Below, piece after piece: positions 27,509-31,296 of a DNA stretch of 31,296 nt (the first letter of the stretch is position 1; the number at the start of each line of letters is the position of its first letter). The translations under genes were made by a program, and so were the position numbers. The stretch is from positions 1 through 31,296 of IMG/VR virus record IMGVR_UViG_3300027741_000179. One strand, given 5' to 3'. Source of the DNA: a virus. The notes below the pieces were generated by a model. That model ran no database searches, was not told the origin of the DNA, and worked only from the letters and a program-made list of their open reading frames with translations.

Positions 27509-28450
27509 ATGCCAATCGGGTACGCAAATTTTTCTACGATAAACGCCGCTAATAACCAGACGGTTAATAGCCTTGCTGGTCTTGGTCAGCAGATTGGTAA
27601 TGCAATTGAGACTCATGCCGCAACTCAATCTGCACAGGCTATGTTGCCAATGCTTCAGCAACAATATACGCAAGGATTGCAAAAGATTGCATCTGGTGAT
27701 CCGAATGGTATGTCTGATGTTTATGGTGCGGCTGTAACTGCATCTCAAAATCCATTGCTTGCTAACTTTGCAAAGAATGCCGTTACCACAGCACAATCTG
27801 CTAACATTAATGCACAACATATGTTAAGGACTCAGGCATATCTTGGTGGAAGAATTGCATCATTGTATGGTCAATATGGTTCTGGACTAATGAATCCTCC
27901 TGCTGGAATGAATCCTAATTGGGCTGGAAAACAAGCAACACCAAAAGCACCTACTGTAACAGATTTGAAAAATGCCAATGAGATGGATTCAAAACTTGCT
28001 GAAGCACAATCTCAAGCATTAAGACTTGGTGATCAACAGGCTTATGATTCTGCTACTCAACAAAGAACTGCTTTAAGAGATCAATTCCCAAACATTACGC
28101 TACCTGCTTTGTCTGGTGCAATGAGTAACTTTGATACAGCAAGTCAACTTTCTAATGCACAAAAGACACTTAAAACAGAGATGACCAAAAAGCCAAATTT
28201 CCTTGGTTTGGGAGGCCCAGATCAAACAAAAATAAAAGAGGCCAAAAATACTATCCAGCAACTTTCAAAACAGGAAAATAATGCATCTGCTGGAGCAACA
28301 AATCCAAACCAACCACAGGGTAATGACACTCAAATACAACAAGGGAATGCTACTTTTAAGTCACCAAATGATGTAAAAGCGGCTTTCCAATCTGGAAAAA
28401 TCAGTCAAGATCAAGCGGTTCAATTGCTACAAGCCTTTCCAAGTAAATGA
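27509..28450 (+). CDS. Ejection-type Gln/Ala-rich protein
   Basis: 313 residues, rich in Gln, Ala, Asn and Ser. The first 130 residues are helical, and about 155-205 continues so (ANEMDSKLAEAQSQALRLG). A Gly/Pro-rich patch (KKPNFLGLGGPDQ) follows. The end (FKSPNDVKAAFQSGKISQDQ, AVQLLQAFPSK) contains the short motif S-Q-D-Q-A-V-x-L-L, which is repeated three times in the next protein (see findings). The stop overlaps the ATG of that gene (ATGA), so both are made in a fixed ratio. Likely a virion internal protein that is ejected. Confidence 0.65.
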   Translation: MPIGYANFSTINAANNQTVNSLAGLGQQIGNAIETHAATQSAQAMLPMLQQQYTQGLQKIASGDPNGMSDVYGAAVTASQNPLLANFAKNAVTTAQSANINAQHMLRTQAYLGGRIASLYGQYGSGLMNPPAGMNPNWAGKQATPKAPTVTDLKNANEMDSKLAEAQSQALRLGDQQAYDSATQQRTALRDQFPNITLPALSGAMSNFDTASQLSNAQKTLKTEMTKKPNFLGLGGPDQTKIKEAKNTIQQLSKQENNASAGATNPNQPQGNDTQIQQGNATFKSPNDVKAAFQSGKISQDQAVQLLQAFPSK

Positions 28451-31296
28451 ACCAAAATGAAGCACTTGATTTTCTAAAAGCATCTGTACCAAATGAGTTG
28501 GGTAAACCTGCCCAACTAGAATCATTAACTCCAGATGAGGTAGGGACACAATTGGTTCCGCAAGTTCGTGCCGCTGGAATGAGCCAAGAAGATGCTTTAT
28601 CGTTCCTTGGTGTTACACCTAAAAAGAAATCTGAAAGTGTAGATTCGGATTATTTGACTTCACCAATTCCTGCGGCTCAATTGCCTCCATCTGACCCAAA
28701 TAATCTGACTTCTAATTACACGCAATCGGTTCCTCAACCTACACCGCAAACATCACAGGGGATAAGCAAAGAAGATGCTTTAGCTTTTTTGGGGGCATCA
28801 CCAGCAGAGCAGACTGCCGCACCGATTAATTTGCCAGCTATGCCTGGCTATGAAAATTACTTTAGGCAAGCCGCCGCACAAACATCCGCTGGTTTAATTA
28901 GACAAGCAGAAGGATTAGAAAGAGCATCAGCCGCACCTTTACCGACATTACCGCAACTTACTCCAGAGCTAGGGCCAGGCATTGGTGGAACAAAAGAAGA
29001 AGCAACATCTGCATTTGATCAAGCTATTGCTGATAGGCAATCGGCATTAACTTCTTTGCAAAATACAATTGCAAAAAAAGGATTTACTACAGCAGACGAT
29101 ACAATGCGTCTAAATGCTATAAAAGATGAGATTTCAAAAATTCAGTCTCAAAAGCCTATTGCTTTAGCATCAGAAGAATATACTCCAGAAGCTCAACAAC
29201 AGCTTTTAGAAAGACGCAAAGCCGCATCAGCAGAAGCTAGTCAACTTGAACAACAAGCTCAAGGAATGTTTCCTTATTTTGGAGTTAGTCCAACAGATAC
29301 TTCTTTGTCAGCACAACTTGGAAGAGGAACAGGAAGTGTTTTTTCAATGGCTCCTGCTATAGTGGGGGGATTAGTTGCTCCAGAAATTGCATTACCTGCA
29401 ATGGTTTTACAAGGTGGTAGTGAAGCCTATTCAAGCGGATACAACAATCATGTTCAAGAACTCAAACAACAGGGAGTAACTGATCAGAAAACCCTTGATA
29501 TTGAGGGTCACAAAGCTGGTAGTGCAGAGGCAATACATTCAGTTCCTGTTCTTGCCGCTTATGCTGTTGGAGGAGTACTTCCCGCAAAAGTTACAGGAGC
29601 ATTAATGAAAGGGGCTTCTCCTTTAGTAAGAGGGCTTGTCGGTGGAACTACCGCCGCTGGAGTTAATCTTGGAATCTCTGGAACCATGAGAGCAATGCAG
29701 GGGCAAAACTTCTTGCCTAATGTTGAACAAGCTGTTCCAGATTTAGCATTTGGTGGCATTGCCGCATTTCATGCAGGTATGGCTCCATCTGAAAATCCTG
29801 TAGTCAATCAAAGGGAAGCTGAAATTATCGGGAAAGCCAATGCACAGAAAGATGTGCCGCTTACTCCAGATCAAGAAAAGGTAAATCAACAATGGCAAGT
29901 GCTAAAAAAGCAAGCTACTGATGTTGCTAATCAACTTGCTGAACTTCCAGAAGATCACCCTGACCGCCCTGCTCTGCAACAAAAAGCACAAAACATTGCC
30001 AATCAAATGGCAGATTTGAGGGCTGGAAAACCTGTTGACATTAAGACAGAACAACCTCAAGGTGACGAAAGATTCCAACCCAAACCAGAAAATGCCGTTC
30101 AAGTCGAAACAACAGGAGAAGTGGGCGTTCGCAACACACCAGCCGTGGGCGAAGGAGTGGGCGAACAAAACAAACCAGAAGAGGTTACCCCGCAAGGTGA
30201 AAAGCCCAAAGAAGAAGTAGCACCAAATACTCTTTCTGAAGAAGAGGCACAAGATCCAATAGCCAAGCTAAACAAATCTACCCCTCAAAAGGATGGTAGT
30301 AATTTGTTTGAACCAGCTACTCAGGAAGAGATTGATGAGCAAAAGAAAAACCCTGTATTTATCCTTGCCGATAAACTAGCAGGTATCTTTGGGAAGAAGG
30401 TTGTTCTATACAGGGCAAAGGAGGGAAGGGTAATCAACGGAGCAGTCAACAGGGGAATGAAGGAATACATTTTCCTTAATGTTGATGGAAGCCGTCCTCA
30501 TCTATTTACTGCTGGTCACGAACTATGGCACAGCATTGAAGTCAATTCTCCAGAGCTTTATAAATCCCTACGCAAAGAACTAGAAGCTCTTGTTAAAGAT
30601 AGGGCTGGACTTGAAGCAAAGTATCGACCTGCTGGTTACAGACCAGAGAGATATGTTGATGAACATATTGGTGACTTACTTGGTGATGCATTACAAGACC
30701 CTGACTTCTGGAACAAACTAGCAGATAGAAATCCAGAGGCATTCAAGTCATTGGCAGAGAAGACCATTGATTGGTTGAACAGCGTAATTGATAAGCTCAA
30801 GGGATGGGCTATGGGTGGTGGTGAGCATACAAGGGATCTTGAGAAGGCAAGGAATATGCTTGCTGATGGGTTGAATAACTTTGCCAAGGGTAAAGATGAA
30901 CCTGTTGCTTACCCTCCTGAGACACCGAGCGAAACTTTCTATCAACAGGAAGCAGAAAAGGTGGATGAAAAATATTCGCAACTTGAGAAAAATTACAAAA
31001 ATGGTGATGAATCTGCAAAAAAAGAAGCTGAAAAAATATTAGATGAAAAAGCATTAAGAAGTAAGCCATATGTAATTGGGCCTATTTATCATTGGAGTAA
31101 AACAAATAATGCTTTTAGGGTATTTGATATTTCAAAAGGAAGAGAAGGATTCCATTTTGGAACCGAAGGAGCCGCAAATCAAGTAAGGGTTGCTCAAAGA
31201 AAAGCAGAAAGATGGGGAGAACCTAAAGTAAAAGGAGAAGATTATAAGGTTTATATAATGTCTGATCATAAACCAATTCGCATAACCGACAGCGAA
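28447..31296 (+). CDS. Polyvalent ejected virion protein, metallopeptidase and ART-like (partial, runs off right edge)
   Basis: Open for 950 codons with no stop before the window end. Residues 1-120 are a low-complexity front with three copies of an E-(D/A)-A-L-x-F-L motif (4-11, 48-55, 109-116). About 150-260 is helical. Hydrophobic Ala/Gly-rich segments lie near 297-320 and 355-410. A charged linker spans 530-600. HELWH at 691-695 with D738-E739 downstream is a zinc peptidase centre. From about 873, KPYVIGPIYHWSKTNNAFRV and FDISKGREGFHFGTEGAANQ resemble the ADP-ribosyltransferase domain of phage polyvalent proteins (H882 in YHWS as first catalytic-type residue). Such proteins are injected with DNA and modify host targets. 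The remaining ART residues lie beyond the window. Confidence 0.75.
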   Translation, partial: MNQNEALDFLKASVPNELGKPAQLESLTPDEVGTQLVPQVRAAGMSQEDALSFLGVTPKKKSESVDSDYLTSPIPAAQLPPSDPNNLTSNYTQSVPQPTPQTSQGISKEDALAFLGASPAEQTAAPINLPAMPGYENYFRQAAAQTSAGLIRQAEGLERASAAPLPTLPQLTPELGPGIGGTKEEATSAFDQAIADRQSALTSLQNTIAKKGFTTADDTMRLNAIKDEISKIQSQKPIALASEEYTPEAQQQLLERRKAASAEASQLEQQAQGMFPYFGVSPTDTSLSAQLGRGTGSVFSMAPAIVGGLVAPEIALPAMVLQGGSEAYSSGYNNHVQELKQQGVTDQKTLDIEGHKAGSAEAIHSVPVLAAYAVGGVLPAKVTGALMKGASPLVRGLVGGTTAAGVNLGISGTMRAMQGQNFLPNVEQAVPDLAFGGIAAFHAGMAPSENPVVNQREAEIIGKANAQKDVPLTPDQEKVNQQWQVLKKQATDVANQLAELPEDHPDRPALQQKAQNIANQMADLRAGKPVDIKTEQPQGDERFQPKPENAVQVETTGEVGVRNTPAVGEGVGEQNKPEEVTPQGEKPKEEVAPNTLSEEEAQDPIAKLNKSTPQKDGSNLFEPATQEEIDEQKKNPVFILADKLAGIFGKKVVLYRAKEGRVINGAVNRGMKEYIFLNVDGSRPHLFTAGHELWHSIEVNSPELYKSLRKELEALVKDRAGLEAKYRPAGYRPERYVDEHIGDLLGDALQDPDFWNKLADRNPEAFKSLAEKTIDWLNSVIDKLKGWAMGGGEHTRDLEKARNMLADGLNNFAKGKDEPVAYPPETPSETFYQQEAEKVDEKYSQLEKNYKNGDESAKKEAEKILDEKALRSKPYVIGPIYHWSKTNNAFRVFDISKGREGFHFGTEGAANQVRVAQRKAERWGEPKVKGEDYKVYIMSDHKPIRITDSE
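30092..30220 (+). CDS. Overprinted small basic protein inside the polyvalent gene
   Basis: In the +1 frame relative to the host gene, ATG 30092 to TAG 30218-30220 encodes 42 residues beginning MPFKSKQQEKWAFATHQPWA, continuing KEWANKTNQKRLP, and ending in a Lys-rich tail. From memory this follows the layout of a widespread short phage protein: MPFKSK-x-Q-x(2)-W-x-FA, then a (P)-x(2)-AKEW-x(3)-T, then LP-x-(K/R)-V and a Lys tail. The host frame here is a low-complexity linker (GVRNTPAVGEGVGEQNKPEE) with locally high G+C. No strong ribosome site is seen. A longer in-frame opening at 30035 exists, but the family start is at 30092. Confidence 0.55.
   Translation: MPFKSKQQEKWAFATHQPWAKEWANKTNQKRLPRKVKSPKKK

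Follow-up and report, generated by a model that had tools for sequence, protein, structure and literature searches.

A probable overprinted small gene within a giant virion-type gene of a viral contig, with nested homologues in unrelated phage genes

The window analysed here, IMG/VR virus record IMGVR_UViG_3300027741_000179 (positions 1 to 31,296; 31,296 nucleotides in all), ends in a giant ORF that encloses a second, shorter ORF in the +1 frame (Table 1). The small ORF begins with ATG, has its sense codons at 30092–30217 and stops at 30218–30220, and its 42-residue product is MPFKSKQQEKWAFATHQPWAKEWANKTNQKRLPRKVKSPKKK. It meets the criterion for an overprinted gene, being a complete ORF within a longer ORF whose frame stays open throughout. 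The small product has a charge of +11, compared with −5 for the host-frame peptide over the same bases, a linker rich in Gly, Val, Glu and Pro. The G+C content is 0.51–0.52 at ~30050–30249 and 0.39–0.45 in the flanks on either side. The first-pass annotation had placed a 42-codon +1 frame at exactly these coordinates and had described both the raised local G+C and the Gly/Val/Glu/Pro linker in the main frame; all three descriptions are borne out.

Table 1. Features of the locus and of related loci
Feature	Position	Strand	Remarks
Host gene	28447..31296	+	Giant presumed virion protein, 950 codons, runs off contig end
A-rich stretch before internal ATG	30066..30091	+	No Shine-Dalgarno motif
Dual-coding segment, host frame	30091..30219	+	Acidic linker NAVQVETTGEVGVRNTPAVGEGVGEQNKPEEVTPQGEKPKEE
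Nested small gene	30092..30220	+	42 codons + TAA, PHROG 1375-like, basic product
HELWH (HExxH) motif	30517..30531	+	Host protein, zinc-peptidase-like, 3' of nested gene; read from translation
Carriers of a second +1 ORF			L124, L127, L130, L133, L136-L138, L141, L146-L149, L154, L156, L159-L161

The length of the open frame was rejected as evidence for a gene, since among 5000 shuffles preserving the main protein 82% contain a +1 ATG ORF of at least 42 codons somewhere; these same 42 codons remain open in 9%. Scored against a family profile from which the window had been excluded, the small frame reaches 65.1 bits (E = 9.7e-19) and is the sole match across the six frames of the window, compared with a maximum of 37.1 bits for 5000 synonymous shuffles. 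The product matches the PHROG 1375 profile over residues 3–42 (E = 4.6e-8) as well as PHROG 5320 (E = 9.5e-6), and close relatives match PHROG 1375 with E values of 1.5e-7 and 5e-6. Family homologues occur in hundreds of phage records, with one copy per record among those that carry the gene. Unlike the nested window copy, many are stand-alone genes, found in phages of Mycobacterium, Gordonia, Streptomyces and other hosts, in a podovirus, in many viral contigs and in contigs of bacterial MAGs; in several phages the stand-alone copy lies beside the portal or terminase gene. The first-pass annotation had referred to a free-standing MPFKSK-type phage family, and had stated that a lack of stand-alone homologues of the 42-residue product would refute its proposal; the homologue search that it suggested finds such genes, and the family exists. 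Automatic annotation misses the small gene; 68 Flavobacterium elemovirus records match it, and none lists a feature for it at the match. In a literature search of open papers, which did not extend to non-open journals or preprints, no paper was found that describes the peptide, PHROG 1375 or the overlap. At four loci (L175, L196, L213 and L222) the same motif forms the in-frame N-terminal part of longer proteins (~190–360 aa).

A Shine-Dalgarno motif is present at only two of the 23 ORF starts checked in the window, so its absence before the internal ATG is the local norm and internal initiation needs nothing unusual. In the ~400-aa host genes described below, the ten codons that precede the small ATG (−10 to −1) show a host third-position change of 0.207, compared with ~0.28–0.38 further upstream, perhaps owing to a ribosome-binding constraint. 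The predicted structure of the small protein (pLDDT 79) contains two helices (residues 6–14 and 18–26) followed by a basic Lys tail; neither a sequence match in the PDB nor a fold match with Foldseek was obtained.

The entire host protein, used to scan the viral contigs, retrieved nothing (the peptide patterns missed), and its relatives were instead obtained with the small-protein profile. The homologues of the window host ORF are L006, L008, L166–L169 and L007. The window host ORF itself has no curated Pfam domain above the cut-off, the HELWH motif included; its relative L006 matches phrog_938 and phrog_10089 (DarB-like and endolysin PHROGs). Nested homologues in the same +1 frame are present in ~85 viral contigs, and at all loci examined every long nested case shares one phase. 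The first phage search gave two matches within 11-kb genes, in Podoviridae sp. MW202828 and in Flavobacterium elemoviruses, and reading of the frames places both copies at +1, as in the window. With the overlap masked, the host ORFs resolve into a ~400-aa group (67 loci), the giant group of the window (nine), a second giant group (seven) and three single giants; outside the overlap the host groups are mutually unalignable. A further nested copy lies in a 1746-codon ORF (L241 4001) on a contig binned with a MAG of the betaproteobacterium Sulfuritalea sp., which is probably a phage or prophage contig.

The ~400-aa host gene follows genes for TerL (phrog_6681) and portal (phrog_6547) and precedes that for a head structural protein (phrog_13704), presumably the major capsid protein, and thus occupies the position of a scaffolding protein. 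The annotation of its homologues in Cellulophaga phi38:1 and in an elemovirus reads 'structural protein'. An unbiased set of 80 members, retrieved through the C-terminal part alone, contains 35 with the small gene, always nested in the same frame; in the remainder the linker is another one, likewise acidic and rich in Pro, Val and Glu, or a +1 ORF of another kind is present. This second +1 ORF (MKLKKITLTTxEWLxSLxMPxPQKNKKKYNRKxKHKK) occupies the same place, within the first ~130 codons of the ~400-aa relatives, and bears a mark of inner-frame selection of its own, with 86/38/31 differences at host codon positions 1/2/3 in 371 codons inside it and 407/248/833 in 3497 codons outside. That it is a diverged homologue of the MPFKSK gene is unsupported (profile comparison probability 0.4%). 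At one locus (L099 ~2660–2896) the host frame of the ~400-aa gene stops after 79 codons and the small frame is garbled downstream; this disruption is a frameshift or an assembly error.

Substitutions in the two frames, a comparison that the first-pass annotation had proposed, were counted in 29 disjoint pairs of ~400-aa genes (1345 codons inside the overlap and 10030 outside). Differences at codon positions 1/2/3 of the main frame number 240/113/121 inside and 1284/813/2931 outside (Fisher test on the counts, 4e-41), or 0.178/0.084/0.090 and 0.128/0.081/0.292 per codon, respectively. The ratio of third- to first-position change is 0.55 inside (bootstrap 0.40–0.70) and 2.26 outside (2.03–2.57), and the signature is bounded by the small ATG and the small stop. 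As host position 1 is position 3 of the small gene, the silent position within the overlap belongs to the small frame. Most loci were found by small-frame similarity, so that distant pairs are subject to ascertainment, and metagenome contigs may contain assembly errors. The eight closest pairs (less than 10% diverged) are nearly free of the former bias and give 30/2/5 inside and 70/35/361 outside. Linkers without the small gene have the ordinary third-position peak (0.267/0.241/0.417). When nearest neighbours are tested whether or not they carry the small gene, pairs with a swapped N-terminal module are included and the signal is diluted. We conclude from this pattern of substitutions that the small frame is under purifying selection.

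Within the lineage of the window, no part of the host gene is better conserved than the overlap. The window and L006 differ at 13 of 129 sites across it (~90% identity; 6/4/3 differences over 43 codons), whereas 36–68% of the sites differ in the flanking host sequence, which is near saturation. Three disjoint pairs from this lineage have a ratio of first- to third-position differences of 33:13 inside the overlap and 193:211 outside (p = 0.003). The small frame is open and conserved in all eight distinct members; relatives with a conserved linker but an alternative frame full of stops, which the first-pass annotation had said would refute the gene, are not among them. Elemoviruses D and A are identical across the overlap and 9% different in the flanks. 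Elemoviruses C and A (L002 3001–3126 and L228 2001–2126) have three differences in the 126-bp overlap and none in the surrounding ~3.4 kb, as if a short tract had been replaced. The 42-codon ORF is thus real and, judged by comparative evidence, protein-coding.

The host frame also leaves its mark. Among comparisons restricted to a small-protein identity of 0.5–0.8, silent differences per identical codon amount to 0.24–0.27 for copies nested in the ~400-aa gene, 0.39–0.47 for copies in giants and 0.59–0.62 for stand-alone copies. Silent changes that are tolerated in stand-alone genes are avoided when the gene is nested, which suggests constraint on both frames, although base composition may confound silent-site comparisons in part. 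Phe3 is encoded by TTC in 76 of 77 nested copies and in 32 of 64 stand-alone copies, a preference that is explained by the TAA which TTT-AAR would create in the host frame. Pro2 is CCA or CCG in all 73 nested copies and in 27 of 50 stand-alone copies. This bias does not arise from stop avoidance, because CCT and CCC give no host-frame stop; either the host frame selects its residue there or dual coding was already present in a common ancestor of the nested copies.

How one small gene came to lie in unrelated hosts admits more than one answer. A stand-alone gene may have been captured repeatedly and independently into acidic linkers, always in the same frame since only that frame keeps the linker acidic. 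The lack of alignment between host genes outside the overlap would be expected from such captures, and the small-protein tree requires several changes of context, with at least three forced for the giant and for the 400-aa groups. Over the overlap the small protein has a mean charge of +12 and the host linkers −12, and the other sense frame would be basic. However, in random back-translations the host frame that is used is open in merely 3.5% of cases, compared with 37% for the other sense frame and 36–49% for two antisense frames; of the sense frames, the sole one seen in long hosts is therefore the one that chance would leave open least often. Moreover, copies nested in unrelated hosts resemble one another in their silent codons, with 0.41 differences per identical codon between them and 0.64–0.65 between nested and stand-alone copies. 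These two observations favour a common dual-coding ancestor, and repeated capture, while still viable, is the less likely history.

Several observations bear on movement of the block. MW202828 and the elemovirus share a head module with marine phages (capsid proteins 54 and 45% identical, respectively; 400-aa gene matches with E = 1.6e-74 and 7e-63), and they carry the small gene in a giant gene, with no small gene in the linker of their 400-aa gene. The gene that harbours the small frame thus differs between related phages with a common head module, and we read this as apparent transplantation of the dual-coding block, with neither the direction nor the number of events fixed. In the tree, L116, whose copy lies inside a 400-aa gene, groups with the giant-nested copies of MW202828 and the elemovirus (support 100/96), which is suggestive of movement; L116 is a long branch, and most forks of the small-protein tree are unresolved for want of alignment columns. 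The small gene is absent from eight of the 26 nearest neighbours picked by the host C-terminus alone and is thus not indispensable at the ~400-aa site. In three pairs (L135/L127, L142/L147 and L162/L161) the C-termini are 11–16% diverged and only one member has the MPFKSK gene; the N-terminal module is exchanged between close ~400-aa relatives. The first-pass annotation had offered either capture of a small gene inside the linker or origin of the linker by overprinting. That choice is supported in a refined form: the block is common to unrelated hosts in one frame, and which of the two frames is older is not settled. Whether a dual-coding module with a single origin has been handed on whole from one virion gene to another, unrelated one in tailed phages, giving rise to stand-alone forms or taking them up on the way, is in our view an even call.

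Two other readings deny the small frame a separate protein. The +1 region could extend the host protein by way of a frameshift, or could act as an element at the RNA or DNA level, as the strong conservation of the overlap between saturated flanks and the reduced third-position change in the ten codons upstream would allow; this is very improbable, because Met1-Pro2 is invariant across 25 diverse aligned members with a +1 stop usually only a few codons upstream, the substitutions retain the codon periodicity of the small frame and the same protein is encoded by free-standing genes. Least probable of all, and already contradicted, is that the host linker peptide is the conserved entity and the +1 frame merely protein-like: a host-frame peptide (N/D-A-V-Q-x-Q-S/T-T-x-E) is indeed conserved across hosts, nested copies do show fewer silent changes in the small frame and the open length is common by chance, but the same small protein occurs in stand-alone genes where the host frame has stops, variation peaks at the third position of the small gene rather than that of the host and synonymous shuffles of the host gene never come near the real profile score.

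The function of the small protein is inferred from genome context only. Its neighbourhoods (terminase, portal, the scaffold position and giant virion genes) suggest that it belongs to the late programme of head assembly and packaging, although in cluster B mycobacteriophages it is located well away from those genes. In virion mass spectrometry of Mycobacterium phage Patience, as that work is summarised in PMC7150772, the family member gp10 is unlisted, so the protein may be absent from the virion or escape detection by its small size. A role as a non-structural assembly or packaging helper, or as a minor nucleic-acid-binding protein, is put forward tentatively, at a little under even odds, and there are no expression data.

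The reading that we prefer, with a probability of roughly 85%, is a genuine small gene overprinted within a giant virion-type gene; its internal initiation, its head or packaging role and its place in a mobile block are inferences, and its translation and function remain unproven. Ribosomes in the long frame would make the large protein with an acidic disordered linker at the overlap, and those starting at the internal ATG, with its A-rich leader and without a Shine-Dalgarno motif, would make a separate 42-residue basic protein. The latter would be co-expressed late with the virion genes and may act as a helical hairpin in head assembly or packaging, e.g. by binding nucleic acid or the capsid or scaffold. 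The block would move between host genes as one dual-coding unit, and this frame may be favoured because a Lys-rich +1 frame reads as a Glu-rich linker in the host. As far as sequence comparison alone can establish, four points are demonstrated: homology to stand-alone genes, purifying selection that acts on the small frame, a further constraint imposed by the host frame and a common frame in unrelated hosts. The question of origin, be it capture, birth by overprinting or transplantation, becomes testable with sequence data, and a conserved 'linker' peptide of giant phage proteins, which could be mistaken for a domain, is partly the shadow of another gene.

The host of the window resembles the polyvalent proteins (Iyer et al., 2017; PMC5512222) in being a very large phage protein and differs in that few curated domains are detected; a text search of that paper found no mention of an overlapping gene. 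The small gene shares with the stand-alone genes of PHROG 1375 and 5320, which are of unknown function, the FKSKxQ motif, the A-x-x-x-P/W-x-A-K/R motif, an LP block and a basic tail, and its 42 residues fall within their length of about 40–65 aa; in contrast to them, it lies inside a virion gene in another frame, is unannotated and lacks the Gly-rich N-terminal arm. Overprinted or nested phage gene pairs such as Rz1 within Rz of lambda and the overlaps of phiX174 are each tied to one partner gene. Like these, the small gene is a complete same-strand gene in a shifted frame with both frames under selection; unlike them, its family has mutually unalignable partner genes, a constant frame and a stand-alone form too. 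The usual view of overlapping genes is of unique pairs, each bound to a single locus, whereas this family sits in several unrelated virion genes.
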